Shown here piece after piece: positions 8,177 to 33,863 of a stretch of 53,475 nucleotides of DNA; within the stretch, counting starts at the first letter, position 1, and every line of letters starts with the position of its first letter. The notes beneath the pieces are model-generated. The model did no database searches. It was not told the origin of the DNA and saw only the letters and a list, made by a program, of their open reading frames with translations. A program made the translations under genes and the position numbers. Origin of the DNA: a virus; IMG/VR virus record IMGVR_UViG_3300028388_004078, positions 1 through 53,475 of that record; one strand, 5' to 3'.

Positions 8177-8191
8177 CTGCGACCTCGGAAA

Positions 8192-8267
8192 TGGCAGGGG
8201 AGCAGGGAATCGAACCCCGTCTGTCGCGGTTTTGGAGACCGCCGCTCTACCAGTGAGCTGCACCCCC
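8192..8267 (-). tRNA. tRNA-Trp(CCA)
   Basis: Anticodon stem GCGGT/ACCGC with loop CTCCAAA (CCA), D arm GCTC/GAGC, T loop TTCGATT, G73 and encoded CCA. One acceptor pair is a T-T mismatch. Confidence 0.88.
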
Positions 8268-8274
8268 ATGGTGT

Positions 8275-8350
8275 TGGTACTCCCGGCTGGATTCGAACCA
8301 GCGGCACCCGCCTTCGGAGGGCGGCGCTCTGTCCACTGAGCTACGGGAGT
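8275..8350 (-). tRNA. tRNA-Arg(CCG)
   Basis: Acceptor ACTCCCG/CGGGAGT, anticodon stem CCGCC/GGCGG with loop CTCCGAA (CCG, reads CGG), T loop TTCGAAT, encoded CCA. Confidence 0.9.
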
Positions 8351-9041: not shown

Positions 9042-9106
9042 AGTCACCTCCGGTCGAATGCGCGAGCGCTGGCCATTCGTTATCGTCCAACGCTCGCGCA
9101 TGGGCG

Positions 9107-9312
9107 TTAGCCCTTGAGCAGTTCAGCGATGCCTTCGGCACTTTCGCCAGCGTCGGTCAGCGTGGCGACGATGTCGTCGAGGATCACGTCCGCAGCGGCT
9201 TGCGCTACTCGGTGATCTTCCCGCGAAGCATCTTCTTGAGAGCTTCGCGCTCGTCTTTCTTGATTGCGCTGACGACTTGGGTCAGTACGCCTTGGTTTGG
9301 TTGATCGGACAT
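9107..9312 (-). pseudogene. Small protein gene with a single-base frame break
   Basis: From the ATG at 9312 (GGAGGG upstream) the frame reads MSDQPNQGVLTQVVSAIKK...KKMLRGKITE and stops at TAG. One base is missing relative to a natural continuation: with GGGG instead of GGG near 9226 the product would run on as EDHRVAQAAADVILDD...GIAELLKG. Both halves look like one small helical protein. Homopolymer sequencing error or real decay cannot be told apart. Confidence 0.5.
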
Positions 9313-10060: not shown

Positions 10061-10480
10061 CAGTAACCGCAGTCGTAGTCGTCCACGTGTCGCGTGAACG
10101 TGCCGTCATTGAAGGTGTATACGACCTGATAGTTGGCCGTAAACTCGCGGTCAAGGGCGGGAATGACCACGTTCGAGATTGCCGCGCTGATGGCCTTGTA
10201 GTCGTAGTCACCTTCGGGCGTCAGCCCGAGATCGTCGGAGAGTTCCCCGTAAAGGCGCGCCTTGCCGTTTATATCGCTCATTCCAATCAACGAATCAGTT
10301 TCGTGCTTGCACGGCTCGCCGTCGTTGAAGTTCGGAGTGTATCCGTAGACATAGATGACGCCGACCGTGCCCATCTGATCGATGGCCTCAAGAACCGGGG
10401 ACACCGAATCGGTGATAAGTTGAAGAAGTTCCGCTTCTTTGGTCTGGACCGCCTCAACAGCAGCCGTGAGTGTTTGGCAC
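10060..10480 (-). pseudogene. Hypothetical protein gene with one extra base near its start
   Basis: The best start is the GTG at 10480 with AGGAGG 5 bp upstream, but the long frame TLTAAVEAVQTKEAELLQLITDSVSP...FTRHVDDYDCGY is offset by one base. With one C fewer at about 10476 the product would read MQTLTAAVEAVQTK, a natural start. The body (about 139 residues) has an amphipathic helix, then TVGVIYVYGY and a C-terminal strand-rich part. Function unknown. Probably a functional gene with a sequence error or a very recent lesion. Confidence 0.5.
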
Positions 10481-11556: not shown

Positions 11557-11757
11557 TTAGCTGTATTCCAGCGCTCCATGTTCTTCGGCTTGGGTGAGAA
11601 AGCGCTCAATCACACCCATTGCAAGCTGTACCTGTTCGACTTGTTTTGGATCAGACAGGATTTCCTCCGGCTTGATGCGCCCCCCATTGAATAAATCGTA
11701 ATAGGGGTCATCAGAAATGACGACATCTGCGTCGTCGTTAAATTCGAACGGCTTCAT
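11557..11757 (-). CDS. Small acidic hypothetical protein
   Basis: A 66-residue protein (MKPFEFNDDADVVISDDPYYDLF...) with GAGGA before the ATG. The N-terminal half is acidic and the C-terminal half is a predicted helix (DPKQVEQVQLAMGVIERFL). It lies between a class I leucine tRNA and tRNA-Leu(GAG). No family recognised. Confidence 0.5.
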   Translation of the reverse strand: MKPFEFNDDADVVISDDPYYDLFNGGRIKPEEILSDPKQVEQVQLAMGVIERFLTQAEEHGALEYS

Positions 11758-11779
11758 TTCATTCCTCGTCTATGTTTTG

Positions 11780-11862
11780 TGCGCAGGGAGGTACTTGAAC
11801 CCTCACGACCTCTCGGACACCGCCCCCTCAAGATGGCGCGTCTGCCGTTCCGCCGCCTGCGC
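11780..11862 (-). tRNA. tRNA-Leu(GAG)
   Basis: Class II leucine tRNA: acceptor GCGCAGG/CCTGCGC, long variable arm, anticodon loop TTGAGGG (GAG) closed by a stem with one A-C mismatch. CCA is not fully encoded (ACA follows), unlike most of its neighbours. Confidence 0.75.
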
Positions 11863-11864
11863 AT

Positions 11865-11938
11865 TGGTTGTCCTGAGAAGAATCGAACTTCTATCTAACG
11901 ATTATCAGTCGTTTGCTCTACCGTTGAGCTACAGGACA
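11865..11938 (-). tRNA. tRNA-Ile(GAT)
   Basis: Acceptor TGTCCTG/CAGGACA, anticodon stem AACGA/TCGTT with loop CTGATAA (GAT), T arm GAAGT-type with TTCGATT, encoded CCA. Confidence 0.88.
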
Positions 11939-13504: not shown

Positions 13505-13815
13505 CACGCTTCTTCTGGGATATCTCCCAAGTCAGTCACACCGAAGTGTGCGTAGAAATCTCTCAGTTCACGCTCGTCAATACAGAAAGTGTACCAACGA
13601 ACTTGACCAGTGTATTGGAACTGGTCTCGAAGGCTCATTGCTGCACCAGCAACAATGTCCGGGTTTTCCCTGATCCAGTCAGCATGCTCCGCGCATTCCA
13701 ACATGGTTCCATAGCGTGCCTCGTGGCCCGCCCACACACAATGGAACGGGGGTGCTGGCGACATTTCTCCCGCACTCATCGCGGTGCAGAATGCTACGAT
13801 TGGAACTAAACCCAT
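13504..13815 (-). CDS. Small, possibly exported hypothetical protein
   Basis: A 103-residue protein starting at 13815 with GAAGGA upstream. The first 18 residues (MGLVPIVAFCTAMSAGEM) are hydrophobic and could be a signal peptide without a basic N-terminus. The rest contains AGHEARYGTMLECAEHADWIRENPDI and TGQVRWYTFCIDERELRDFYAHFG. The TGATG overlap couples it to the broken HNH gene. No family recognised. Confidence 0.5.
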   Translation of the reverse strand: MGLVPIVAFCTAMSAGEMSPAPPFHCVWAGHEARYGTMLECAEHADWIRENPDIVAGAAMSLRDQFQYTGQVRWYTFCIDERELRDFYAHFGVTDLGDIPEEA

Positions 13816-21031: not shown

Positions 21032-21175
21032 ATACGTTAGAAGTATGCTGTTGCGATGCGGTCTTCAAGACACTGATGATGTGTGAAGGAGCGAAGCGGG
21101 TGGCTTTGCTCTCTACCAATGATGAATTAGAAGTATGCCTGCCCATGCGGCTCCCTCGCAAATCATCAGTGTAAG

Positions 21176-21527
21176 TTGGGGGCTTCTGTTGCTAGGTGCC
21201 CCCGGACCCCTTGGACTTACGCCGCGATGGCAAGCGCCGGAGCGCGGTCATCGTTTGCGACGGAAGCCTCGATTGCGATCATGTCGATTGCAGTTGTGAT
21301 TTCGAATCGAAGTTCTTGCCCTGATAACGGTAAGGCCAAGCCGACACGCCACTTCACTTATTGTTCCTGTCGATCCTATTTCGCCCCCATCAAAACCGCA
21401 CCTCATTTTGAGCGTGCCATCGGCTATACCGTGTGACCCGAACTTAGGATCGGGTGCGGTTATGGTGGAGGCGCGGGGTACCGCCCCCCGGTCCAGAAAA
21501 CCATCCGCTTCGCAGATGAACGTGTGT
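21176..21527 (-). ncRNA. ssrA: Two-piece (circularly permuted) tmRNA
   Basis: The gene has the permuted order of alphaproteobacterial tmRNA. First comes the acceptor RNA: T arm CGGGG-GGCGGTA-CCCCG, acceptor CGCCTCC, A and encoded CCA ending at 21463. Then an intervening segment whose AACCGCACC and GGTGCGGTT pair to bring the ends together. Then the coding RNA, starting at 21388 with GGGGGCGA and GGATCGACAGG; GGGGGCG pairs with the acceptor strand. The tag frame (21217-21258) reads ANDDRAPALAIAA then TAA. The helix GTAAGT/ACTTAC closes the 3' part. The promoter is at 21534-21562. It should rescue stalled ribosomes and tag products for proteolysis. Confidence 0.92.
21217..21258 (-). CDS. tmRNA proteolysis tag peptide
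   Basis: Resume codon GCA, then 12 more codons and TAA, encoding ANDDRAPALAIAA. The AND-start and the small hydrophobic end are typical of alphaproteobacterial tags; the terminal AIAA differs from the common ALAA and could alter ClpXP or SspB recognition. Confidence 0.9.
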   Translation of the reverse strand, partial: ANDDRAPALAIAA

Positions 21528-21533
21528 AGGGAA

Positions 21534-21562
21534 GACATAGACGATTCGAGCGGCTATGTCAA
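21534..21562 (-). promoter_or_regulatory. GANTC-containing tmRNA promoter
   Basis: TTGACA, 9 bp, GAATC, 3 bp, TATGTC on the minus strand, a few bases upstream of the acceptor RNA of the tmRNA. Confidence 0.75.
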
Positions 21563-21564
21563 GC

Positions 21565-21843
21565 TCAATATGCCGTTGGAAACGTCTGAATCGGAGAAGT
21601 CGTGTTCTCCAACGTGACCGTGTCGACTTCAACGCGGTACACCTCGACGTAGAGGATCGAAATCTGATCCACACGAACAGTTGCCGCGCCATTGTTGATA
21701 TCGACCCAATCCTCGGTCAGCGGTGTCCGCCGCCGGGTCTGCGCCTGAGAAAGCGCCGCGACGAGGCTGGCGACATTGGCTGTCTGGTGGATGGTGAGAA
21801 CGTAGTCGCTAATCAGGCCACGTACAACGGCGAAGTATTCCAT
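21565..21843 (-). CDS. Small hypothetical protein upstream of tmRNA
   Basis: A 92-residue protein with AAGGAAG before the ATG. It begins MEYFAVVRGLISDYVLTIHQTANVASLVAALSQ (helical) and continues with WVDINNGAATVRVDQISILYVEVYRVEVDTVTL, a run of strands. It ends just before the tmRNA promoter. No family recognised. Confidence 0.5.
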   Translation of the reverse strand: MEYFAVVRGLISDYVLTIHQTANVASLVAALSQAQTRRRTPLTEDWVDINNGAATVRVDQISILYVEVYRVEVDTVTLENTTSPIQTFPTAY

Positions 21844-24608: not shown

Positions 24609-25106
24609 TCAAGGCACGACGCACTTGTTCTGGATCATGGGATTGATCAGGTCCCGGCGAAGATAGCGATAGATGTCCTTGAAGCAGTCGCCGTGCGGTT
24701 TCATATAGGGCTTCGAGCTTTTTCGCCCAAACCGTTTAATCTTCGGGCCGTATCGGAACTGAACATGGTGAGAGACTTCGTGGGCGACGAGACACCAGAG
24801 GGCGTCTTCGGGGTCGATGACGGTGATGCGCCCGATTATGGGGTCCTTGTCGAACGACTTGTATTCCGACCATACACGGTTGTTTCTTTGCCAGCACTCA
24901 AGGTTGATTTTGATGCAGGACGCACCTGCTCGGGACCGGATGCCCGGAGTGCTTCTGACGATGAGGGCTTGATGTGCGATGGTGCCTGCGTTAGCGGGCA
25001 GATCAAGCTCATATTGCTTGAGGCGGAGTTGCCTGATGCAGCGCTTGACCATCTTAGCAACTTTCTGCGCCTCGGATCGGCTGACGTTCTGACCGAGAAT
25101 CTTCAT
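24609..25106 (-). CDS. SprT-like zinc metalloprotease
   Basis: A 165-residue protein starting at 25106 (AAGGAGG). ALWCLVAHEVSHHVQFRYGPK contains the HExxH zinc site (HEVSH), and KPHGDCFKDIYRYLRRDLINP downstream supplies the third ligand region, both typical of SprT-like proteases. The N-terminal part is basic and helical. Members cleave DNA-protein crosslinks or have unknown targets. A promoter (TTGACA, 17 bp, TACATT) lies at 25136-25164. Confidence 0.75.
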   Translation of the reverse strand: MKILGQNVSRSEAQKVAKMVKRCIRQLRLKQYELDLPANAGTIAHQALIVRSTPGIRSRAGASCIKINLECWQRNNRVWSEYKSFDKDPIIGRITVIDPEDALWCLVAHEVSHHVQFRYGPKIKRFGRKSSKPYMKPHGDCFKDIYRYLRRDLINPMIQNKCVVP

Positions 25107-25135
25107 GTGGGCCTCCTTCTGATTCGCTATGAACA

Positions 25136-25164
25136 AATGTAACTCACAGCGAAAATGATGTCAA
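25136..25164 (-). promoter_or_regulatory. Promoter of the SprT-like gene
   Basis: TTGACA, 17-bp spacer, TACATT on the minus strand, 30 bp upstream of the gene. No GANTC in the spacer. Confidence 0.6.
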
Positions 25165-25485
25165 GTACCTGTTTTACAAGAGATTCTGAGGCTCGGCCCA
25201 GAATAGTTAAAAATGTGTTAATCCATATTTGAAAATTTTCAAATTTTTGGAGACCGGTTTTTTGAAAGGGGGGTGGGGGGTCTAATTCTCGGCTGGGTCC
25301 CCGGTTGGTGTGAGAGGCGCTGCCGGGTGCTGTAAGTGGTAAATTGGTCTTGGCCTAGCTAACAGCTACTACGCGCGCGAATCACCCCCACCCCTACCTC
25401 CCCCTTGGGTCCCTCCCGGTTTCGAATGTCAAGGTTCCATGTTTGTGCCGCGATGTTTTTTGCATCGCGACACTTTGTCCTTGAC
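25165..25485. other. Gene-free region with long-range G/C inverted repeat
   Basis: 320 bp without a gene. It has an AT-rich palindrome (TTTGAAAATTTTCAAA near 25228), a G-run block containing GGGGTGGGGG (about 25266), its exact complement CCCCCACCCC at about 25386, and a hairpin CGCGATG/CATCGCG near 25452. The G-run could form a quadruplex on the plus strand. Function unknown. Confidence 0.6.
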
Positions 25486-25743
25486 TTACCAGCCAGCATC
25501 TGCCTCGACCAGCAGGTCCGTGAGGTAGTCCATGCATTGCGATTCGATCTTGTCCATCAGGCGCTTGCTCACCCGCTTGCCGCGCGAGTTATAGACAATC
25601 ACGTCCTCAACCTCGGTCCATGCCGGTTCGTCGCTGCCGTAGCTGTTGCTGCCGCCATGCGAGACAGTTGCTTCAACCTCAACCTCGCACTCATACTCGG
25701 TTCCGTTGTGCTGGATGTAGACGGTGGCGGTGATGTTGGTCAT
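25486..25743 (-). CDS. Accessory hypothetical protein
   Basis: An 85-residue acidic protein with AAGGGA before the ATG. MTNITATVYIQHNGTEYECEVEVEATVSHGG and WTEVEDVIVYNSRGKRV suggest a small beta-sheet protein with a helical end. Own promoter at 25777-25805. First of a series of short, separately promoted genes. Confidence 0.6.
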   Translation of the reverse strand: MTNITATVYIQHNGTEYECEVEVEATVSHGGSNSYGSDEPAWTEVEDVIVYNSRGKRVSKRLMDKIESQCMDYLTDLLVEADAGW

Positions 25744-25776
25744 TGGGTCATTCCCTTGTTAGCGTTTCGATGATTC

Positions 25777-25805
25777 TTTATCGCACTCCTCGCCACGATT
25801 CGCAA
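25777..25805 (-). promoter_or_regulatory. TTGCGAATC-type promoter
   Basis: TTGCGA, 17-bp spacer, GATAAA on the minus strand. GAATC overlaps the -35 element. Confidence 0.7.
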
Positions 25806-25829
25806 TAGAAAAATCGCACGCCCTTTCAT

Positions 25830-26270
25830 TTATTTGGGCAGGGCCAGCACGCTAGGCGGTGCATCGTACGGGGCCAGCATGTAGAGCGCTGCCACATCAT
25901 GCACAGGCTCTTGCGTGTCGCGCCGGTAGAAATAGGGCGCAAAGGTCGGCACGTACGTGACGCCCACTAGCCCGGTCAACGATTCCAGATAGGCGCGCCA
26001 TCCGTCCACATCATGCGACACGATTCCAGCGTCGATGCGCGCAAACGCGTGGACATTTTTCTGCCCGGTGCGGCATACCTTGGCGCGGCCAGCCCTGCCC
26101 ACAACCATGCGGGCAGGGCCATCGCAAACGACGACTCGGGCGTGGGATTCGACGCGGCCAGAGCGGCGCGATTTGAGCGACCAGACCCTCCGGTGGAGAT
26201 TGAAATACACATCCGCCATCTGAAAGCTTTGCGAGTCAGCGACGGGCGGAAAGAGGGGGTGCCGGGTCAT
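25830..26270 (-). CDS. Accessory hypothetical protein
   Basis: A 146-residue protein; the ATG at 26270 follows AAAGG. MADVYFNLHRRVWSLKSRRSGRVESHARVVVCDGPARMVVGRAGRAKV is a pattern I recall from phage and plasmid hypothetical proteins, with strong basic character. The C-terminal half has FAPYFYRRDTQEPVHDVAALY. Its role is unknown. Own GANTC promoter at 26307-26335. Confidence 0.55.
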   Translation of the reverse strand: MTRHPLFPPVADSQSFQMADVYFNLHRRVWSLKSRRSGRVESHARVVVCDGPARMVVGRAGRAKVCRTGQKNVHAFARIDAGIVSHDVDGWRAYLESLTGLVGVTYVPTFAPYFYRRDTQEPVHDVAALYMLAPYDAPPSVLALPK

Positions 26271-26306
26271 GAATTTTGCCTTTCGGGTTTTTCGTTTTGT
26301 CACATC

Positions 26307-26335
26307 TTTCTAGCGCGATTCGCGGGCAAGGTCAA
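26307..26335 (-). promoter_or_regulatory. GANTC-containing promoter
   Basis: TTGACC, 8 bp, GAATC, 4 bp, TAGAAA on the minus strand, before the gene at 25830-26270. Confidence 0.65.
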
Positions 26336-26357
26336 GCGCCTTGCCCGCATGCCTGCC

Positions 26358-26744
26358 CTACGCCACATCCCCTTTGCGGGTTATGAATTCCGACAGTTTG
26401 CCGCGCCAGATGCGGCGCTCGGTCCACTTGTCCCAGCCTTCCACGCTCGACACAGCGAGCCACAGAGCGCCATCACCGGCCTGCGTCAGTAGGTAGCCAT
26501 ATTCCACGTCACAGGCCGCGCGGCGCGTCTTGGCGCGGCTCACGCTGCCGCTGCCGGTCTTGTTCGCTGCCACGAAAGCGGCGGCGAATTCGTCGGCCTC
26601 GTACCGGGGGAGGGGCCATGCCACGCCAGAGTCCAGCGTATTGTTGAAATAGTTCCACGCCCATGTCGGATAGCCGTCGTGGTGGATATAGACGTGATGC
26701 GATTCGCGGGTGTCCTTGAAGGTGTAAATTGCACGGGTGCTCAT
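26358..26744 (-). CDS. Conserved phage accessory protein
   Basis: A 128-residue protein starting MSTRAIYTFKDTRESHHVYIHHDGYPTWAWNYFN. The RAIYTFKD ... VYIHHDGYP segment is found, as I recall, in many phage and plasmid hypothetical proteins. The C-terminal part has CDVEYGYLLTQAGDGALWLAV. No function is known. AAAGGA before the ATG and a GANTC promoter at 26811-26839. Confidence 0.65.
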   Translation of the reverse strand: MSTRAIYTFKDTRESHHVYIHHDGYPTWAWNYFNNTLDSGVAWPLPRYEADEFAAAFVAANKTGSGSVSRAKTRRAACDVEYGYLLTQAGDGALWLAVSSVEGWDKWTERRIWRGKLSEFITRKGDVA

Positions 26745-26810
26745 ATCTGAGTCCTTTCCTTGGGTTTATGCCCCGCGCCTTTACCGGGGCCGCGTTCTTT
26801 CTGTGCATCC

Positions 26811-26839
26811 TTTATGCCTGATTCGTAGGGCGCGGTCAA
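26811..26839 (-). promoter_or_regulatory. GANTC-containing promoter
   Basis: TTGACC, 9 bp, GAATC, 3 bp, CATAAA on the minus strand. The 30 bp are nearly identical to the promoter at 27140-27168. Confidence 0.75.
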
Positions 26840-26864
26840 TAGAAATTTTCCGCGCCCTTCTTTT

Positions 26865-27089
26865 TTACCAGCCTTCCCGCATGGGGCGATAATCCGACCA
26901 TTCGCCATCATAGACAGCAGCGATGCAGCCTTTCAGGAAAAGCGCCACGCTCTTGACGTTGCTTCCCGCATGGAAGCGCTCGACAGCGATCTGGCGAGCG
27001 ACACGCGCGTCGGTTCCCAGATGGAAAGGGTGCTGAACCGCCTTGCCTTCCTCGATTTCGACGGAGAGGGTGAAGGTCGAATGTGCCAT
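26865..27089 (-). CDS. Accessory hypothetical protein
   Basis: A 74-residue protein (MAHSTFTLSVEIEEGKAVQHPFHLG...) with GGGAGA before the ATG. Strand-rich start, then a helix ARVARQIAVERFHAG and NVKSVALFLKGCIAAVYDGEW. No family recognised. Promoter at 27140-27168. Confidence 0.6.
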   Translation of the reverse strand: MAHSTFTLSVEIEEGKAVQHPFHLGTDARVARQIAVERFHAGSNVKSVALFLKGCIAAVYDGEWSDYRPMREGW

Positions 27090-27139
27090 GGGTGTCTCCC
27101 TTTCTGGCGAGGGCTGCGGGTGCCGCCCTTTCTGCATCC

Positions 27140-27168
27140 TTTATGCCTGATTCGTAGGGCGCGGTCAA
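27140..27168 (-). promoter_or_regulatory. GANTC-containing promoter
   Basis: TTGACC, 9 bp, GAATC, 3 bp, CATAAA on the minus strand, a near copy of the promoter at 26811-26839. Confidence 0.75.
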
Positions 27169-27192
27169 AAACTATTGACCGCGCCTTACTTT

Positions 27193-27462
27193 TTACGGTG
27201 TTTCACGTGAAACAATGGCGTCCAGTAGCGTTTGCCAGTCTTTCGCGGGGATTGCCACGAATTGCGGCGAATTCGTCGCGGTCGCGGCGCGGGAAAGATT
27301 GACCAGAACCGCCCGCAAGCGCTCGGAGTCGTTGTGTTGCGCCTCTTGCGTTTCGATGCATTCGATTGCGACTCGGATCGTTTCCGCGATCTCTGCCCCG
27401 TCAAGGTGCGGATTCAGATGCACGTTGCCGGGTTGTGTAGACCCTAGAAGGGTCCGCAGCAT
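27193..27462 (-). CDS. Accessory hypothetical protein with parS in its 3' end
   Basis: An 89-residue helical protein (MLRTLLGSTQPGNVHLNPHLDGAEIAETIRVAIECIE...) ending DAIVSRETP. The last codons are made from a perfect 16-bp parS palindrome (27199-27214). A TTG overlapping the stop before it could be an earlier start. No family recognised. Confidence 0.5.
   Translation of the reverse strand: MLRTLLGSTQPGNVHLNPHLDGAEIAETIRVAIECIETQEAQHNDSERLRAVLVNLSRAATATNSPQFVAIPAKDWQTLLDAIVSRETP
27199..27214. promoter_or_regulatory. parS: parS-type centromere site, copy 1
   Basis: Exact 16-bp palindrome TGTTTCACGTGAAACA, the consensus bacterial chromosomal ParB binding site. It lies in the 3' end of the gene at 27193-27462. 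Confidence 0.85.
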
Positions 27463-27476
27463 GTTTGCGGTTGCGT

Positions 27477-27641
27477 TCAAGCGCCGACTCCGGTGCCGAT
27501 GCAGAACGCCACGCCATCCCAAAGCCATTGAACGGGGCCAGCGGTGGCGAAAAGGGTCAGGACATTTTCCGTCATCTCAAAGCGCAAGCCGGTGAGATTC
27601 AGAAAATAGGTCATTTGATCGGGCGTGATGCATTGCGGCAT
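27477..27641 (-). CDS. Small hypothetical protein
   Basis: A 54-residue protein (MPQCITPDQMTYFLNLTGLRFEM...) with GGAGGG before the ATG, hydrophobic with TAGPVQWLWDGVAFCIGTG near its end. It lies between a basic peptide gene and the parS-containing gene and overlaps or abuts both. Confidence 0.5.
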   Translation of the reverse strand: MPQCITPDQMTYFLNLTGLRFEMTENVLTLFATAGPVQWLWDGVAFCIGTGVGA

Positions 27642-27642
27642 G

Positions 27643-27729
27643 TCAGACCCTCCCCAGCCGCGTCCAGCGGCGACGAGTCGGGCGATTGCGGCGGATTGCG
27701 TGGCGGGCCATGAAAGCTTTCAGAATCAT
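27643..27729 (-). CDS. Arginine-rich small peptide
   Basis: A 28-residue very basic peptide (MILKAFMARHAIRRNRPTRRRW...) with AAAGGA before the ATG. The stop codon lies two bases from the next ATG, consistent with coupling. Promoter at 27759-27787. Could bind nucleic acid; unproven. Confidence 0.45.
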   Translation of the reverse strand: MILKAFMARHAIRRNRPTRRRWTRLGRV

Positions 27730-27758
27730 TGGGTTTCCTTTCGGGTTTGGGTGATCTC

Positions 27759-27787
27759 AGATTAGGCGGTGCGGGCGATTCTGTCAA
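27759..27787 (-). promoter_or_regulatory. GANTC-containing promoter
   Basis: TTGACA, 17-bp spacer starting GAATC, TAATCT on the minus strand. Confidence 0.65.
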
Positions 27788-27803
27788 CCGCCCGCGCCAA
27801 GTT

Positions 27804-28412
27804 TCATGCGGTGGGCGACACGTAAACCGGGCCATCCGCGCCAGCCTGAATCGGCACGTAGTCTTCGCCAGCCGTGGCGCGTGCCGAGTCCATGCCTTCG
27901 CTCAGCGCATATTCAGGCTCGCCAATGAAGCCCCAGCAAGAGTCGATCTGCTCGCCTTCGGAGTCGGTGACGGTGAAGCCGTAAACCTCGCCATTCGCCC
28001 ATGCCGAATAGGTCTTGACTTCCTGTTTCAGGATTTCCAGAACCTTGGCGCGCAATTGCGGGCTGATTCGCTTGACGCCATATTCGCGGCGCACATCTTC
28101 CCGGCTCACGTAGATGAAACCGAAAAGCCCGGAGTCCCATGGGCAATGAAAGGGATTCGACTCGGCGGCGCGGTAGCAGGTGCCGGAATGGTCATAGAGC
28201 CAGACCGGCAGGCAGATGTTTTCACGCGCGGTGGCGATGCGGCGCGCTTCCTCGGCGCTGCCATGGGGCGGGTTGTCAGGCGATGCATAGCGACCATGGA
28301 AGCCAAAGAACCGGCCAAGGTTGCACCAGTCACGCGGCGACTCGCTACCGGTGTCATAGTGAACCTCGACAGTCAGGTCGCCAACATTGCGGGTTTCGAT
28401 TGCGTCTTGCAT
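27804..28412 (-). CDS. Conserved accessory protein
   Basis: A 202-residue protein (MQDAIETRNVGDLTVEVHYDTGSESPRDWCNLGRF...) with AAAGGA before the ATG. LPVWLYDHSGTCYRAAESNPFHCPWDSGLFGFIYVSREDVR and EVYGFTVTDSEGEQIDSCWGFIG are conserved in a family I recall from many phages and plasmids, always of unknown function. Several Trp, Cys and His residues. Promoter at 28438-28466. Confidence 0.65.
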   Translation of the reverse strand: MQDAIETRNVGDLTVEVHYDTGSESPRDWCNLGRFFGFHGRYASPDNPPHGSAEEARRIATARENICLPVWLYDHSGTCYRAAESNPFHCPWDSGLFGFIYVSREDVRREYGVKRISPQLRAKVLEILKQEVKTYSAWANGEVYGFTVTDSEGEQIDSCWGFIGEPEYALSEGMDSARATAGEDYVPIQAGADGPVYVSPTA

Positions 28413-28437
28413 TGGGTTTCCTTTCCTCTGATATGCC

Positions 28438-28466
28438 TTTGTAGCACATGTCGGTGCGATTCGCAA
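28438..28466 (-). promoter_or_regulatory. TTGCGAATC-type promoter
   Basis: TTGCGA, 17-bp spacer, TACAAA on the minus strand. Confidence 0.75.
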
Positions 28467-28498
28467 GCATAATAATTTACCATGCTTGCGAATTCAAT

Positions 28499-28699
28499 TC
28501 AGCCGATTTTCAGCAGGTCCGCAGCGGGGTTGTTTTCCAGCGCGTCCAGTTTTCGATTGACTTCATCCAAGCTAGTCGAGAATGTCCCATCCTCGGATTG
28601 AGTCCCGTCCAGCCAGTAACCGGGCTGACCGTCCACATGATCGGATTCCAGTACATAGCCCATGATGCGGGCGCGGGCGTAGGTTTGAGGCTCGGTCAT
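28499..28699 (-). CDS. Small accessory protein
   Basis: A 66-residue protein (MTEPQTYARARIMGYVLESDHVDGQPGYW...) with AAGGA before the ATG. Short strands then a helix DEVNRKLDALENNPAADLL. No family recognised. Promoter at 28734-28762. Confidence 0.55.
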   Translation of the reverse strand: MTEPQTYARARIMGYVLESDHVDGQPGYWLDGTQSEDGTFSTSLDEVNRKLDALENNPAADLLKIG

Positions 28700-28733
28700 T
28701 TTGTTTTGTCCTTGTTTAGCGTTTCAATAAGTC

Positions 28734-28762
28734 TTTATCGCATGGGTCGCGGCGATTCGCAA
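28734..28762 (-). promoter_or_regulatory. TTGCGAATC-type promoter
   Basis: TTGCGA, 17-bp spacer, GATAAA on the minus strand. Confidence 0.75.
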
Positions 28763-28795
28763 GATAAAAAATTCGCTTATCCTTTGTTTTTTGTA

Positions 28796-28824
28796 TTGCG
28801 AATCGCGGCGGCGCGGCGTAGTGT
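28796..28824 (+). promoter_or_regulatory. TTGCGAATC-type promoter of sRNA copy A
   Basis: TTGCGA, 17-bp spacer, TAGTGT on the plus strand, about 6 bp before the first conserved base of the small RNA. Confidence 0.75.
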
Positions 28825-28829
28825 ATAGG

Positions 28830-28909
28830 GGAGGTCAGGAAAGATCGGCGGACACCGATTGAGTAAGGGGCGGGTTAGGAGTGCAGAATCCGTTCTTTTT
28901 TTTTTTTTT
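28830..28909 (+). ncRNA. Small RNA family, copy A
   Basis: About 80 nt. It shares with three other copies the 5' block GAGGTCAGGAAAG, a variable hairpin (here ATCGG-CGGACA-CCGAT), then AGTA-GGGG-CGGGTTAGGAG and a 3' hairpin ending in CCGTTC followed by at least 14 T, an intrinsic terminator. It has its own promoter and no reading frame. Confidence 0.7.
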
Positions 28910-28949
28910 GCGCGCGGCGCGGAACGAATCATGAACAAACGTGTCAAGC

Positions 28950-28978
28950 AAAAAGCGCCCCGCAAGGCGCTTTTTTTT
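28950..28978. terminator. Bidirectional intrinsic terminator
   Basis: AAAAAGCGCC-CCGCAA-GGCGCTTTTTTTT: a GC-rich stem flanked by A and T runs, working on both strands between sRNA copy A and the membrane peptide gene. Confidence 0.85.
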
Positions 28979-29070
28979 CACAAGGCGAGTCCGATCACTA
29001 GCAAGGCATAGGTCAGGACCGCAAAGGCAATCCCGGCGCGGATTGTGCCGCGCCGGGGGTTGTCTGTCAT
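28978..29070 (-). CDS. Small single-pass membrane peptide
   Basis: A 30-residue peptide: basic start MTDNPRRGTIR then one membrane segment AGIAFAVLTYALLVIGLAL. ATGA overlap with the stop of the DUF932 gene implies coupled translation; a terminator follows directly. Confidence 0.55.
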   Translation of the reverse strand: MTDNPRRGTIRAGIAFAVLTYALLVIGLAL

Positions 29071-29975
29071 GCGGCGCACTTGATATCCGCCATCTTTTCG
29101 GTCAGGTCCCACAGCGCCTGATTCAGGGCGGTGGTTTGGGCAATGCCCTTGACTTCCCGAACCTTGGCGCGGCGTGCCTTGCCATTGGTGCCGGTGATGA
29201 TTCCCCGCTGACCGCCGCGCACGGTGTTTTCTTGCACGATATTGAACGCGCTCCACAGCGTCGGAGTCTTGTCCGCCGAACGGCGCGCCCGCAGGAGGTC
29301 CAGAGGCTGGACAGGGACCGCCGACTCGTTCAGGACGGGCAGGGCGTCGGGGTTTTCCGGGTCCGCCTCATAGGCGTTGGCAAAGCGCACGCGGTGCGCA
29401 GCCTCGGCAAAGGTCAGGGCCTCGGCGCGGTCAAGCGTGATCCCCTTGAACCGCTCGACATGTTCCAGAACGCGCGGCGCGGTTTGCAGCATGTTCAGCG
29501 CCCCGTCGCGCACATCCTCGATGACGGTTTTCCCCGCGTGCCGAACGGTCACGGTGTCGAACGCTTCCCCGGTGAAAAGCCCATTGGTGCAGACAAAGCG
29601 GAAAATGCCCGCGATCATCTTATAGGCGGCGGTCCCGTCATTGGCATTGACCAGAATCACCTCGAACGCTTCCCCGGTGGTATTGGTCAGGGACCGGTGG
29701 CGCAGCCGGATCATGTGGCGCGTGTAGTCCTGTTTTCCGGGGATGCGGGTGCGGGCCTGTTGCGCCATCACGGGCATGAAATCGGCGGCGCGCAAGCCGT
29801 CCAGAACGTTGACGGTCGGGATGGGCACAAAGCGGTCGGAACGCGACTCGTGGGCCTCGGTGGCGAAAAGCGACGGCACGGCGCGCTGCAATTCGTCATT
29901 GGAAAGCGGGGTTGCGCCATCCCAAAAGATGTTGCCGCCGTTGCTCATGCCATTCATGTAACGATTGTAAGCCAT
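29067..29975 (-). CDS. DUF932 (phage/plasmid-like) protein
   Basis: A 302-residue protein starting MAYNRYMNGMSNGGNIFWDGATPLSNDELQ. FVPIPTVNVLDGLRAADFMPVMAQQ, HMIRLRHR, EVILVNANDGTAAYKMIAGIFRFVCTNGL and NMLQTAPRVLEHVERFKGITL follow the DUF932 pattern (conserved SHDG/NANDG-type and FRxVCTNG motifs). These proteins are widespread on phages, plasmids and CRISPR-linked islands; function unproven, antirestriction has been suggested. Promoter at 30025-30053. Confidence 0.8.
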   Translation of the reverse strand: MAYNRYMNGMSNGGNIFWDGATPLSNDELQRAVPSLFATEAHESRSDRFVPIPTVNVLDGLRAADFMPVMAQQARTRIPGKQDYTRHMIRLRHRSLTNTTGEAFEVILVNANDGTAAYKMIAGIFRFVCTNGLFTGEAFDTVTVRHAGKTVIEDVRDGALNMLQTAPRVLEHVERFKGITLDRAEALTFAEAAHRVRFANAYEADPENPDALPVLNESAVPVQPLDLLRARRSADKTPTLWSAFNIVQENTVRGGQRGIITGTNGKARRAKVREVKGIAQTTALNQALWDLTEKMADIKCAA

Positions 29976-30024
29976 AGTCTTGAACCTCTCAGGTTTGTGG
30001 GGTTGCCCCCGTTTCGGTAAGTAT

Positions 30025-30053
30025 GTTTTCGCATAGGGCGCAGTGATTCGCAA
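30025..30053 (-). promoter_or_regulatory. TTGCGAATC-type promoter
   Basis: TTGCGA, 17-bp spacer, GAAAAC on the minus strand, before the DUF932 gene. Confidence 0.6.
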
Positions 30054-30086
30054 CACAAAAAACAGGTCAAACAAAACTTTTTTCTC

Positions 30087-30115
30087 TTGCGAATCGCACA
30101 ACGGTCGGCTAGGTT
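30087..30115 (+). promoter_or_regulatory. TTGCGAATC-type promoter of sRNA copy B
   Basis: TTGCGA, 17-bp spacer, TAGGTT on the plus strand, 7 bp before the conserved 5' block of copy B. Confidence 0.75.
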
Positions 30116-30119
30116 GAAT

Positions 30120-30182
30120 GTGAGGTCAGGAAAGCCTAGCCATGGCGAGTAGGGGACGGGTTAGGAGTGTGGGGTCTGTCTT
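30120..30182 (+). ncRNA. Small RNA family, copy B
   Basis: Conserved GAGGTCAGGAAAG, then a short palindromic CCTAGCCATGG element, then GAGTAGGGGACGGGTTAGGAG and GGGGTCTGTC. It converges with copy D; the shared region 30196-30221 holds a hairpin that may end both transcripts, so its 3' end may be further right. Confidence 0.65.
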
Positions 30183-30189
30183 GACGTTG

Positions 30190-30268
30190 GGGAACAAAAA
30201 GAGAACGGATTCCGCTCTCTTAAACCGTCCCATACTTGGCGCGGGCGGCGCGCCTTTCCTGACCTCAC
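30190..30268 (-). ncRNA. Small RNA family, copy D
   Basis: Minus strand: GAGGTCAGGAAAG, hairpin GGCGCG-CCGCC-CGCGCC, AAGTA-GGGACGGTTTAAGAG, then a 9-bp hairpin AGAGAGCGG-AAT-CCGTTCTCT followed by TTTTTG, a clear intrinsic terminator. Promoter at 30274-30302. Confidence 0.75.
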
Positions 30269-30273
30269 ATATA

Positions 30274-30302
30274 CCTTAGAACGATTCGGGCAGCGGTGTC
30301 AA
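30274..30302 (-). promoter_or_regulatory. GANTC-containing promoter of sRNA copy D
   Basis: TTGACA, 9 bp, GAATC, 3 bp, CTAAGG on the minus strand. Confidence 0.65.
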
Positions 30303-30321
30303 TAATAATTTACCGATACCT

Positions 30322-30337
30322 TGTTTCACGTGAAACA
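30322..30337. promoter_or_regulatory. parS: parS-type centromere site, copy 2
   Basis: Exact TGTTTCACGTGAAACA in the gap between sRNA copy D and the gene at 30400. Confidence 0.85.
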
Positions 30338-30399
30338 TTGGCGGGGCGGTCCTATCTCGGTCGAAACGAGTCTGGATATACGCCCCGCCGTGCCCGCCG

Positions 30400-30726
30400 T
30401 TAGGCGGGATGCGTGCCCGAGTCGCCAATGGCGATGACTCGGCCCTTGTTGAACGCGAAACCTTTCTTGCCTTCCGCGTTTCCATCGGTCGCGGGATAGT
30501 CGAAAAACACGTTGCCATTGTCACGCAACGCTTGCGAGGCAATCGCGCCACGCTCGCCGCCGACGCGCCGCTTGTAAACTTTCGGCATGCCGACGCGAGT
30601 CGTCACGGTGCCGTCTTTCTTGGCGAAAGAGACTTTCGTGATCTGCGCGCCGCGCGCGGCAAGCTCAGCGTCCACGACGCTTTGCGGCAGGAATGCGATC
30701 AGCGCGGAGTCGATATTGCGGGCCAT
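30400..30726 (-). CDS. Accessory hypothetical protein
   Basis: A 108-residue protein (MARNIDSALIAFLPQSVVDAELAARGAQITKVSFAKKDGTVTTRVG...) with AAAGGA before the ATG. A helix, then basic strands with MPKVYKRRVGGERGAIASQALRDNGNVFFDYP, then KKGFAFNKGRVIAIGD. Not recognised. The basic middle suggests nucleic acid contact. Promoter at 30777-30805. Confidence 0.6.
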   Translation of the reverse strand: MARNIDSALIAFLPQSVVDAELAARGAQITKVSFAKKDGTVTTRVGMPKVYKRRVGGERGAIASQALRDNGNVFFDYPATDGNAEGKKGFAFNKGRVIAIGDSGTHPA

Positions 30727-30776
30727 GGGTTTGATCCTTTCGGGTTGCTGCACCTTCGGTGCGTTTCGGTGAGTCT

Positions 30777-30805
30777 GTTATGCCATGCGGCGGGGCGATT
30801 CGCAA
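30777..30805 (-). promoter_or_regulatory. TTGCGAATC-type promoter
   Basis: TTGCGA, 17-bp spacer, CATAAC on the minus strand, before the gene at 30400-30726. Confidence 0.7.
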
Positions 30806-30833
30806 TAGTTTTTTCGCCCCGCCTTGCGTTTTT

Positions 30834-30974
30834 CTAGCGGTGTTTTCCGCCAGACTCGAACGCGCGCCGCTTGGCTTTCGCGCGCCTTGCCTCGCGCCGC
30901 TTGGCTTGCACGCCGTCACGGTCGCGCTTGCGGTCGCGGTTTTCGTGCTTTTCGTTTTTCCAGTCTTTGCCCAT
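30834..30974 (-). CDS. Very basic small protein
   Basis: A 46-residue protein, about 45 percent Lys/Arg/His (MGKDWKNEKHENRDRKRDR..., AKRREARRAKAKRRAFESGG), with AAAGG before the ATG. A likely nucleic acid-binding peptide. The DNA is unusually rich in GCG/CGC codons. A GC hairpin (GGGGCG-AAT-CGCCCC at about 31013-31029) separates it from the gene upstream. Confidence 0.55.
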   Translation of the reverse strand: MGKDWKNEKHENRDRKRDRDGVQAKRREARRAKAKRRAFESGGKHR

Positions 30975-31037
30975 TGTCTCACCTTTCTGCGCTTTGATGC
31001 GCTGGGGTTTGCGGGGCGAATCGCCCCGCGTTTGAAT

Positions 31038-31088
31038 TTAGAAATGACCTAACGCGATGTAAAGCGCGATCAGGATTCCGAGTGTCAC
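31038..31088 (-). CDS. Hydrophobic micropeptide
   Basis: A 16-residue frame (GTG start, TLGILIALYIALGHF) overlapping the stop of the gene before it as GTGA. Its size and hydrophobicity match the other membrane peptides of the region, but nothing else supports it. Confidence 0.3.
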   Translation of the reverse strand: MTLGILIALYIALGHF

Positions 31089-31873
31089 GATTGAGATGCC
31101 TGACTCCTTTTCTGGAATGCGTCAATCTTGGCCTTGACGCCATGGGCCGGGATGAAAACGCTTGCCTTGTTCGGGCTGGAATTGCCGCCGCATGCGAGGC
31201 AAGCCGCGCAATCGGTTTTCTTGCCCGCCGCGTCCGACGCGGGGCAAAGGAATTCGCGGCCTTTGACCAGCGACTCGGCGGGCGTGCCGACTCGGAATGT
31301 CCGGTATCCCATGGCTTGCGCGGCGATTGCCTCACAAGGCGAGTCCGCGCTCGCCATGCAATAGCGGGCGAATTCGGGCGAACAAAACGACTCGCGCCAT
31401 TGATGCGTGTATCCGGTGCAGCGCCCCGCGTCCGCCAGCAATTCCGCCCAAACGTCGAAAGGAACGGCGGCGGGGTCGCCATAGGTGCCGAGTCGCACGC
31501 TCAGACCCGCCAGCAATGCCGCGCCGTCCGCGCCAAGCGCGACAGGATACTTGCCCGCCGCGTTGTGCTTATAGACGTTCAACGGGCCTTGAAAGACCAG
31601 CACATAGCAGGAACGATTCACGTTCTGCGATGCGCGCCCATCTTTGCCCGGTGTCACGATATCGCCCCGGTGCTGACAATTGCCGCAGATGGAATAATCC
31701 GCGCCGGTGTGAATCGCGTCAACCGGGCTGATATCGGTGCGGATGATATAGGTTTGCACCATGTGACCGGTTTTGCGATTCTGCGATTTGGCCTTGATGC
31801 CGGTCGCGATCAGCGCAATGGGCGCGCCGTCGATCTGCGACGGGCCTTCCCAGAGTTTAACAGAGTTTGCCAT
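31085..31873 (-). CDS. Cysteine-rich accessory protein
   Basis: A 262-residue protein (MANSVKLWEGPSQIDGAPIALIATGIKAKSQNRKTGHMVQTYIIR...) with AAAGGA before the ATG. Cysteines cluster in three places: YSICGNCQHRGD, WRESFCSPEFARYC and KKTDCAACLACGG, which suggests zinc or iron-sulphur sites. I recall similar proteins in marine phages and plasmids without a known function. It has a weaker promoter of TTGCAT type upstream. Confidence 0.6.
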   Translation of the reverse strand: MANSVKLWEGPSQIDGAPIALIATGIKAKSQNRKTGHMVQTYIIRTDISPVDAIHTGADYSICGNCQHRGDIVTPGKDGRASQNVNRSCYVLVFQGPLNVYKHNAAGKYPVALGADGAALLAGLSVRLGTYGDPAAVPFDVWAELLADAGRCTGYTHQWRESFCSPEFARYCMASADSPCEAIAAQAMGYRTFRVGTPAESLVKGREFLCPASDAAGKKTDCAACLACGGNSSPNKASVFIPAHGVKAKIDAFQKRSQASQS

Positions 31874-31967
31874 GGGTTTTCCTTTCTGGCGTTGCGGTGA
31901 TTCCTTTCTCGCATATGCCACGCCGGGATGCAAGCGAAAAAATTTTGCGCAAGCTTGCTTTTTTCTC

Positions 31968-31996
31968 TTGCGAATCGCTTTGCCCGGTGTCATACA
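31968..31996 (+). promoter_or_regulatory. TTGCGAATC-type promoter of the H-NS-like gene
   Basis: TTGCGA, 17-bp spacer, CATACA on the plus strand, 50 bp before the ATG. Confidence 0.75.
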
Positions 31997-32046
31997 TAGA
32001 TCACCGAAACGGCAAACAACGCCAAAACCCAAAGGAGACTTTACAC

Positions 32047-32364
32047 ATGACGACTCAGACCCACGGTTTCGACCTTTCCACGCTCGACCCCGCCGCGCTG
32101 GAAGCGCTCGCCGCCGATGCGGCGAAACTCGCCCCGAAGGTGCAGAAGGAACGGCTGGAAGCCGCCCGCGCCGCCGCGCTGGAAGTGATCGAGTCCCACG
32201 GTTTCACCTTGCGCGACGTGTTCCCGAACGCCAAGCGCGTGACGCCCGCCGCGCCGAAATTCCGCCATCCCGACGACGAGTCGCAAACGTGGTCCGGGCG
32301 CGGTCGCAAGCCGGTTTGGCTTGTCGATCTGGAAGCCGCAGGCGGCGCGCCGGTCGCGATCTAA
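32047..32364 (+). CDS. H-NS-like DNA-binding protein
   Basis: A 105-residue protein with AAAGGAG before the ATG. The C-terminal PKFRHPDDESQTWSGRGRKPVWL is the H-NS/HvrA DNA-binding motif (TWSGRGRxPxW) that inserts into the minor groove of AT-rich DNA. The N-terminal 60 residues form a helical oligomerisation region. H-NS-like proteins silence AT-rich foreign genes or compete with host silencers. Own promoter and a strong terminator (32387-32419) make it a single-gene unit. Confidence 0.9.
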   Translation: MTTQTHGFDLSTLDPAALEALAADAAKLAPKVQKERLEAARAAALEVIESHGFTLRDVFPNAKRVTPAAPKFRHPDDESQTWSGRGRKPVWLVDLEAAGGAPVAI

Positions 32365-32386
32365 GGCGCGCCACAGAACAAAGGAA

Positions 32387-32419
32387 AGGCCCGCCTTGCA
32401 TGTGCAAGGCGGGTCTTTG
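32387..32419 (+). terminator. Intrinsic terminator after the H-NS-like gene
   Basis: An 11-bp stem GCCCGCCTTGC/GCAAGGCGGGT with loop ATGT, followed by CTTTG. A-rich on the left side as well. Confidence 0.75.
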
Positions 32420-32428
32420 TGAATGCGT

Positions 32429-32444
32429 TGTTTCACGTGAAACA
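32429..32444. promoter_or_regulatory. parS: parS-type centromere site, copy 3
   Basis: Exact TGTTTCACGTGAAACA between the H-NS terminator and the next promoter. Confidence 0.85.
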
Positions 32445-32463
32445 AGCCTGCGCAAATTTTCTA

Positions 32464-32492
32464 TTGACCGCGCCGCGCGAATCGTGCAAGGT
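32464..32492 (+). promoter_or_regulatory. GANTC-containing promoter
   Basis: TTGACC, 9 bp, GAATC, 3 bp, CAAGGT on the plus strand, 20 bp after parS copy 3. Confidence 0.65.
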
Positions 32493-32517
32493 AAGGCATA
32501 GCAAGAAAGGAAACCCG

Positions 32518-32748
32518 ATGGAAACCGCAGCACAAGCAAAAGCCCGCCTTGACGCCCAAATTGCCTATGGCAAATGGAACGTCGCAGGAACCACCCGCCG
32601 TTTGCGGGAAGCGCAATTGCGCGAAATGTCCCCCGCCCGCCGTGCCCTTTCCATCGCCACAGAAAAGGCGATTGATTGCGTGATGTTTTGCGCGGGCTGG
32701 GCATTGTTCGCCGCGTTTGCGTGGTATGGGATCGGGGGGCTTTTCTAA
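32518..32748 (+). CDS. Small protein with C-terminal membrane segment
   Basis: A 76-residue protein (METAAQAKARLDAQIAYGKW...) with AAAGGA before the ATG. A basic helical N-terminal part is followed by a membrane segment CVMFCAGWALFAAFAWYGI at the end. Its TAA overlaps the next ATG (TAATG). Confidence 0.6.
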   Translation: METAAQAKARLDAQIAYGKWNVAGTTRRLREAQLREMSPARRALSIATEKAIDCVMFCAGWALFAAFAWYGIGGLF

Positions 32749-32981
32749 TGCTGATACCCGAACAAACAACCCGCAACGCAATCCGGGCGGGTGACGTGAT
32801 AGAGCACAACGGGCGAGTCGTCACGTTGTGCGCACGTGATATCCGCCGGGATTCATTCATGGGAGTCACCATACGGGGCGAGTCCTACATGCTGGGGCGC
32901 AAGCCTGTTATCCGGTTGCGCCCATATCGGACGCCACAGGGGGCAGCGTGCCCGCAATGCGTGAACGAGGGCAAGGGATAG
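32748..32981 (+). CDS. Small hypothetical protein with CxxC
   Basis: A 77-residue protein (MLIPEQTTRNAIRAGDVIEHNGRVVTLCARDIRR...) coupled to the gene before it. AGDVIEHNGRVVTL resembles an SH3-like small barrel, and it ends with CPQCVNEGKG. A further short stretch (32982-33125) has a TTGACG promoter-like sequence and no clear gene. Confidence 0.55.
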   Translation: MLIPEQTTRNAIRAGDVIEHNGRVVTLCARDIRRDSFMGVTIRGESYMLGRKPVIRLRPYRTPQGAACPQCVNEGKG

Positions 32982-33125
32982 GGCTTGACGAATCGCGCCC
33001 CGAGCGATACGTTGAGTCATGGCGCAGGATAGCACGCGGAGTCGTGCCGTTACTGTAAGCGGGTGCTGGTCACCTAGCGCGGTGCGAGGCTGAAATGTCT
33101 GATCTGTAAGCCGCCAAATTAGCCC

Positions 33126-33154
33126 TTGCGAATCACCGGGCAATGTCCTAATCT
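33126..33154 (+). promoter_or_regulatory. TTGCGAATC-type promoter of sRNA copy C
   Basis: TTGCGA, 17-bp spacer, TAATCT on the plus strand, 6 bp before the conserved block. Confidence 0.75.
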
Positions 33155-33159
33155 GAATG

Positions 33160-33226
33160 TGAGGTCAGGAAAGCGCGGCGGACACCGGGCAAGTAGGGGA
33201 CGGTTTAGGAGAGCAGACTCTGTCTA
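33160..33226 (+). ncRNA. Small RNA family, copy C
   Basis: GAGGTCAGGAAAG, a GCGGCGGACACCG element shared with copy A, AAGTAGGGGACGGTTTAGGAG, then GCAGACTCTGTC able to form a small hairpin. The 3' end is uncertain; a T run follows at about 33261. Confidence 0.7.
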
Positions 33227-33309
33227 TCTACAAAAGGTTAACGAAAGCTTTCTCGCCAGATTTTTTGATGGGGCGGGCGCGCTCCAGACAAAAACGGCGC
33301 GCGCGCTAT

Positions 33310-33480
33310 AGAAAAAATGAGAAAACGTAAAAACGGCTGATCGTCAAAACGAGCGATCACCAGAACGAGCGTGCGTATTAAAAAATGAGAAAACGTAAAA
33401 ACGACGGATCGTCAAAACGCGAGATCGTCAAAACAAAAATGAGAAATAGTCAAAATAAAAATGCGATCCCGTCAAAACTG
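33310..33480 (+). repeat. Iteron-like direct repeats
   Basis: At least five repeats around GATCGTCAAAACG or GATCCCGTCAAAACT are spread over 170 bp, mixed with two copies of ATGAGAAAACGTAAAAACG. One more CTCCCGTCAAAACT lies at about 33664. Together with the AT-rich makeup this resembles a replication origin or a regulator-binding array. No gene overlaps. Confidence 0.6.
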
Positions 33481-33863
33481 CGTTTCACCAGTTCTGAAAC
33501 GAAAGCTGGGCGCGGCTCGGCTTAGGCGTGATGGGTCATATATGACCCCTAAAGCGGTGTGAGATGCCATAAATGACTCATTGAGGCCCGCTACGCGGGC
33601 TTCTCCCAGTTCGCCAAGCAGCGCGAGCTTTCGCGCCCCTCGGCGTGACAGTGATAAATATAAAAAATACGCTCCCGTCAAAACTCGTTGCAGTCGTTTT
33701 GAAACAAAAACCCCACCAGTATATAACTGGCGGGGCGTTCCATTTGATCTTCTGCTTTTTGCTCAAAAGTAAAGCCAAGCTCATGGCTCTGATGCACCTT
33801 ATATAACCGATTCGTGCTGGTTTGTTAAGAGATTCTTTATCTTAATGCTCGTTTTCAGAGGCA
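33481..33863. other. Gene-free region with palindromes and terminator-like hairpins
   Basis: Contains a perfect 16-bp palindrome GGGTCATATATGACCC (33535-33550), hairpins GCCCGC-TAC-GCGGGC and GCGCGA-GCTT-TCGCGC, and a strong stem CCCCACCAGT/ACTGGCGGGG (about 33711-33737). No credible gene on either strand. Confidence 0.5.

Follow-up and report, generated by a model that had tools for sequence, protein, structure and literature searches.

A multi-copy candidate small RNA family in the early region of CbK-like roseophages

Phage genomes are known to carry genes for small regulatory RNAs, including VpdS of phage VP882 and PreS of lambda (PMC12197685). The RNA gene described here, which is present in four copies (A to D) in a 53,475-base virus fragment from IMG/VR (hereafter, the window), belongs to this known kind. 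It resembles VpdS and PreS in being a short, noncoding phage RNA gene for which a host-directed role in the lytic cycle is proposed, whereas those two are described as Hfq-dependent RNAs with known targets. The present RNA instead occurs in three to six copies per genome, is preceded by promoters containing CcrM sites, mostly lacks a U-tail and has no relative in Rfam; copy number, promoter type and the usual absence of a U-tail distinguish it from the described phage small RNAs known to us. No paper describing it was found in a literature search.

Three further RNAs invite comparison. As for CsrB and RsmZ, a dose-based mode of action would apply, several GGA motifs are present, and a hairpin is combined with single-stranded stretches; however, the GGA motifs of this RNA are neither enriched over shuffled sequences nor conserved in loops, and the phages lack CsrA. 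Domain IV of the small signal recognition particle (SRP) RNA (4.5S) presumably shares with it, by eye, the order GGUCAGG, hairpin, AGYAG, which we treat as a lead only; the outer helix and the loop spacing differ, and no SRP RNA family was matched by cmscan at E ≤10. The third is CcnA of Caulobacter, a noncoding RNA that acts on the ctrA and gcrA mRNAs and whose CCCC loop pairs with GGGG motifs (PMC8959179). CcnA is an alphaproteobacterial RNA of the GcrA/CcrM circuit, and the phage RNA carries GGG(G), although this is a resemblance only: CcnA belongs to the host and has a C-rich loop, and any relation between the two would be that of a sponge to its target.

Copies, relatives and predicted fold

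The window virus, a large virus of marine bacteria, is a relative of the siphophages DSS3P8, V10, RpAliso, MD18, DSS3_MAL1 and RcXuper (genomes of ~146-150 kb), of which MD18 and DSS3P8 have been described as CbK phage relatives (PMC7643831). The sequence GAGGTCAGGAAAG occurs without mismatch at exactly four sites in the window, 28831 (+), 30122 (+), 33161 (+) and 30266 (-), each no more than 2 nt from the position assigned to one of four RNA copies by an earlier, sequence-only reading of this DNA (Table 1). The shared layout proposed in that reading, a variable hairpin followed by a central block and a second hairpin, recurs in all four copies, with a central block close to AGTA(G/A/T)GGG(A/G)CGG(G/T)TTAGGAG. 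Its statement that the copies contain no reading frame also stands, in that no open reading frame (ORF) is conserved or shared among them; a 45-aa ORF extends across copy B (30142-30279), and its start codon is missing from the other copies.

Table 1. Positions of the RNA copies, their promoters and adjacent genes in the window
Feature	Position	Strand	Details
Small early-type protein gene	28499..28699	-	Divergent from A; start codon to RNA start 132 bp; same promoter class
Copy A promoter	28796..28824	+	-35 TTGCGA 28796-28801; -10 TAGTGT 28819-28824
Copy A GANTC (GAATC)	28800-28804	+	Overlaps -35 box
RNA copy A	28831..28909	+	5' segment 28831-28842; AGUA and central block after hairpin 1
Copy A hairpin 1	28843-28860	+	AUCGG/CCGAU core; loop CGGACA
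Copy A hairpin 2	about 28867-28896	+	T14 terminator 28896-28909
DUF932 protein gene	29067..29975	-	Divergent from B, 147 bp; same promoter class
Copy B promoter	30087..30115	+	-35 TTGCGA 30087-30092; -10 TAGGTT 30110-30115; GANTC 30091-30095
RNA copy B	30122..30184	+	Hairpin 1 short (GCC/GGC); lacks a T-run terminator; converges with copy D
RNA copy D	30195..30266	-	Hairpin 1 GGCGCG-CCGCC-CGCGCC
Copy D 3' hairpin		-	GAGAGCGG/CCGUUCUC, then T5 (terminator)
Copy D promoter	30273..30302	-	-35 TTGACA 30302-30297; -10 TAAGGT 30278-30273
Copy D GANTC	30287-30283	-	Immediately upstream of -10 box
Early-type protein gene	30400..30726	-	Upstream of D, same strand
Copy C promoter	33126..33154	+	-35 TTGCGA 33126-33131; -10 TAATCT 33149-33154; GANTC 33130-33134
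RNA copy C	33161..33228	+	Hairpin 1 loop CGGACA, one G-G mismatch; no T-run terminator

Searches with blastn, exact patterns and a covariance model (R1) identified the element in five isolates, namely DSS3_MAL1 (3 copies), MD18 (3), RpAliso (4), V10 (6) and DSS3P8 (6), and in eight environmental contigs (G001-G006, G008 and G009). A second model (R2), built from 31 copies with the window sequences excluded to avoid circularity, scored the window copies at 77.5, 73.0, 72.8 and 64.6 bits (E 1.4e-18 to 3e-15), and the next-best match in the window reached 4.7 bits. Covariance searching, which the sequence-only reading had suggested as a check, recovered the family both in the window and in other phages. 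The 38 copies analyzed come from a small group of related phages, and their effective number is about 11 at 80% identity.

None of the copies is annotated in the GenBank records of the five isolates. As the earlier reading had supposed, the RNA matches no named family: Rfam 15 returned none at the gathering threshold and, within 28700-33400, none near that threshold at E ≤10. The element was not found in phiCbK, in the plasmids searched, at any of 80 loci with relatives of the neighboring gene 31085-31873, or in RcXuper, where model R1 gave no match even with filters off. A host or prophage origin was considered and rejected, since a pattern scan of genome contigs gave 17 scattered matches in unrelated phyla that scored ≤22 bits with the model and are attributed to chance. 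Low-scoring, coding-like matches in five viral records (L014, L016, L020, L021 and L151) were likewise set aside as chance. Overall, the small-RNA family is very probably real and new to annotation, and we are highly confident, from comparison of the sequences, that these loci form a family of RNA genes.

The copies begin with a near-invariant GAGGUCAGGA. At the RNA level the start reads GA(G/A)GUCA(G/A)GA, and a column-by-column comparison gives eight invariant positions (G1, A2, G4, U5, C6, A7, G9 and A10). Hairpin 1 follows, with a stem of about 6 bp in most copies and 3-4 bp in a few, usually one unpaired position on each side, and loops of limited variety (CGGACA, CCGCC, GGCG/GGC or, in some copies, singletons). 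On its 3' side lie an invariant AGUA, a slightly variable NGGGACGG and a 3' part, of which one version is close to GUUAGGAGUGCGGAAUCCG and the other close to GCGAGGGUCGGCGGAAUCCG. Pairing in hairpin 1 is retained in 89% of cells, compared with 54% in shuffled alignments, and 62 cells are double-changed (23.7±3.1 in shuffles). Its covariation score is 0.706 (shuffled, 0.180), a value reached by none of 500 shuffles; compensatory change is seen in all six pairs, and control versions slid along the alignment collapse.

The sequence-only reading had regarded the RNA as a scaffold with a swapped hairpin serving as a variable target or binding part, and this interpretation is not supported. The stem drifts in a compensatory manner, the loops belong to few classes, and copies within one genome can share their hairpin, which is identical in all three copies of MD18 and nearly the same in four of five copies in L015. 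These observations argue that hairpin 1 is a predicted structural part and that the constant portion of the RNA corresponds to its single-stranded flanks. At the level of a guess, GGAA and AGUA, which flank hairpin 1, may be apposed in a manner resembling a bulged-G (loop E) motif. Pairing between the two ends of the RNA was also considered and did no better than the control.

Promoters and genomic setting

Taking the first G of each copy as +1, a predicted promoter of the sigma-70 type lies upstream of each of the 38 copies. In all of them position -35 is T, and 17-18 bp separate a TTG hexamer from a TAnnnT-like -10 box, which spans roughly -12 to -7 (with A at -11 in 36 copies and T at -7 in 37) and whose hexamer ends 6 bp before the first G. 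This assignment is a matter of consensus matching, although its placement with respect to the conserved start is shared by practically all copies. The start had previously been placed 6-7 bp after a GANTC promoter; the distance is right for the end of the -10 hexamer and not for GANTC itself, which in 37/38 copies begins either at -20/-21 or at -31/-32, two placements separated by one helical turn (the L022 copy has GANTC at -28 and -17). In the window, GANTC starts at -31, over the -35 box, in A, B and C, and at -21, just upstream of the -10 box, in D. Hence, of the earlier proposal of a new small RNA family with its own promoters and terminators, the family and the promoters are backed by the sequence evidence, and the terminators by copies A (14 T) and D (5 T), B and C having no T-run.

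In many copies GANTC lies in a GCGATTCGC context, which agrees with YGAKTCK, the extended GcrA motif; this motif and a GcrA homologue in phiCbK have both been reported (PMC7987155). The RNA promoters combine the fixed GANTC position and the YGAKTCK context of GcrA/CcrM-dependent promoters, and their class recurs at most neighboring protein genes of the window. From this circumstantial support we infer that early transcription would be carried out by the host polymerase with GcrA, and early expression of the RNA appears likely. A 'hypothetical protein' of MD18 (MT270409, 108218-108592, locus L161) belongs to the GcrA family (65 bits, above the Pfam cut-off); no such protein was found in the other phages searched, and the N6_N4_Mtase family, which includes CcrM, had no match in the phage records searched.

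GANTC is also unevenly distributed at a larger scale. Positions 25000-33300 of the window form an island with 87 sites, compared with 30.7±4.1 expected (z 13.8) and with 11-31 sites for other 5-base palindromes of the same make-up. Sites are enriched both within genes (9.4/kb) and between genes (13.8/kb) of the island and depleted in the rest of the window. MAL1, RcXuper and DSS3P8 likewise show enrichment in their early regions; phiCbK does not. A second GANTC lies within the RNA gene itself (GGAATCC/GGACTCT, positions +47 to +56) in 31/38 copies, and its N varies even where the predicted RNA pair is thereby broken, possibly reflecting selection at the DNA level. The island and these internal sites would suit an element that functions purely as DNA (a recombination, packaging, CcrM or GcrA site) and is never an RNA. 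We consider this extremely unlikely, given that hairpin 1 shows compensatory change while its loops are not conserved, and that the conserved block of every copy starts precisely where transcription from a canonical promoter is predicted to begin.

All copies in the five isolates are intergenic, with no overlap with an annotated coding sequence. Of 20 copies examined, 15 are transcribed divergently from the next gene, with 131-141 or 188-189 bp between the RNA start and the start codon of that gene. The remaining five share the strand of their 5' neighbor, and four of these converge with a second copy. In the window, copies A (132 bp) and B (147 bp) follow the divergent arrangement; B and D converge on each other. 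Such regular spacing, most often 131-141 bp from the next start codon, and the frequent convergence with the previous gene could indicate a cis-acting element, in which a divergent transcript insulates or tunes neighboring early genes by promoter firing against the upstream gene or as a bidirectional terminator. Nonetheless, conservation from the start site onward and compensatory change in the hairpin would be needless for transcriptional interference, most copies have no T-run, and some are on the same strand as their neighbors, making a cis-acting role unlikely.

The protein gene at 30400..30726 has homologues beside RNA copies in all five isolates and also in RcXuper, which has several of the same neighboring genes without this RNA. 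A search near the RNA copies for a protein present in the RNA-positive phages and not in RcXuper gave no clear candidate. Early protein genes of the window and RcXuper have in common a 5' leader that resembles YUYACCGAAACGG and directly follows the promoter (in the window, upstream of 28699-, 29975-, 30726- and 32047+; in RcXuper, L009, in repeat families D2 and D5). The last of these window genes (32047-32364, +) is in the early region, and its small product contains an H-NS C-terminal DNA-binding domain (E 2e-13). In both phages, iteron-like arrays of CGTCAAAAC/GTTTTGACG repeats adjoin the early region (window 33290-33720; L009 6571-6808) and possibly mark an origin or terminal region. Elsewhere, the window carries an alphaproteobacterial (permuted) tmRNA gene (21174-21566, -) and about 30 tRNA genes.

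Possible modes of action

The explanation we consider best, with a probability of roughly 0.5, is that of a multi-copy early noncoding RNA of CbK-like roseophages that acts in trans on a host factor through its flanks. All copies would be transcribed by the RNA polymerase of the host, probably together with GcrA at methylated GANTC sites, right after infection and at the same time as the neighboring early genes. Because of the copy number, the output would be a high dose of a 65-100-nt RNA with the 5' start GAGGUCAGG. The unpaired 5' GAGGUCAGGAA and AGUA(N)GGGACGG, on either side of an exchangeable hairpin 1, would bind one host factor, either an RNA-binding protein or a host RNA, which would be titrated or redirected for the phage. 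Hairpin 1 would serve as a structural spacer, and hairpin 2 would shield the 3' end and terminate transcription where a T-run follows. The constant single-stranded flanks, the compensatory drift of the stem and the hairpin shared among MD18 copies favor a trans-acting, flank-binding RNA, and for trans action through the constant flanks, taken on its own, we see about even odds.

Several points weigh against this explanation. Every partner tested gave a null result, and the evidence for an RNA is comparative throughout. The distribution is also narrow, given the absences from RcXuper, phiCbK and the 80 neighbor-gene loci noted above. With regard to the fold, the only changes in hairpin 2 (GGGACGG...CCGUCC) are G-C/G-U exchanges, which give no compensatory support, and the central-block GAC could instead pair with the 5' GUC (94% of cells), which makes the 3' fold tentative. 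Moreover, when A, B and C are folded individually, their energies lie within the ordinary range (z -0.4 to -0.9).

A conserved 5' end that stays single-stranded is a usual feature of seed regions, and the unpaired GAGGUCAGGAA might accordingly be the seed of an antisense RNA that pairs with UUCCUGACCUC-like complements in host mRNAs or small RNAs and alters their translation or stability. Copies A and D and some relatives do end in a T-run, and PreS of lambda, which acts on a host mRNA (PMC12197685), provides a precedent. However, a T-run of ≥5 directly follows hairpin 2 in only about 9 of the 38 copies, so that an Hfq-type tail is not general, and no conserved antisense site for GAGGUCAGGAA was present in the seven phage records searched. 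The latter result led us to reject pairing of the 5' end with phage mRNAs and favors a host target. Antisense action on host RNAs is possible but somewhat doubtful.

The several GGA, GAGG and AGGAG motifs in each copy, and the GGA displayed by loop CGGACA in about half of the copies, could also suggest a decoy that occupies either a CsrA/RsmA-type protein, which binds GGA, or the ribosomal anti-Shine-Dalgarno sequence; the RNA would then mimic CsrB/RsmZ or a ribosome-binding site. Yet GGA counts and anti-Shine-Dalgarno duplex energies were no better than those of dinucleotide shuffles, the loop GGA is missing from the CCGCC and GGCG classes, and GAGG is replaced by GAAG in some copies. In addition, the phages have no CsrA, and none was found in the Caulobacter control genome. 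A decoy function is thus quite improbable.

A possible RNA slot in the early region

The Rhodobacter phage RcXuper (L009) carries, on its minus strand, a different unannotated, intergenic, RNA-like element in five copies (8108-8282, 8974-9148, 10115-10289, 11705-11879 and 13564-13738), each with a constant ACUCACGGAACAGGGCGGCGGACGCCUCGACCGGGUGAACGG followed by a variable middle. Like the RNA described here, it is multi-copy, has a GANTC promoter and occupies matching intergenic slots divergent from the next gene, but it is longer and differs in sequence. Homology between the two is not supported, as model R1 found no match with filters off; the RcXuper element is an analogue or an extremely remote relative. 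We tentatively suggest that CbK-like Rhodobacterales phages may keep an early-region "RNA slot", formed by back-to-back CcrM-site promoters with an early protein gene in one direction and a structured effector RNA in the other, which lineages would fill with unrelated multi-copy RNAs that seize a host factor after entry.

The 22 unannotated copies in five isolates, whose recorded hosts are Ruegeria pomeroyi and Phaeobacter inhibens, make the RNA accessible to direct testing in laboratory strains. As a multi-copy, early-type and covarying RNA, it would be a good handle on a host factor that needs to be controlled by the phage. The fixed CcrM site in its promoters offers a testable tie between the first transcripts of a lytic phage and the host cell-cycle regulators GcrA and CcrM.

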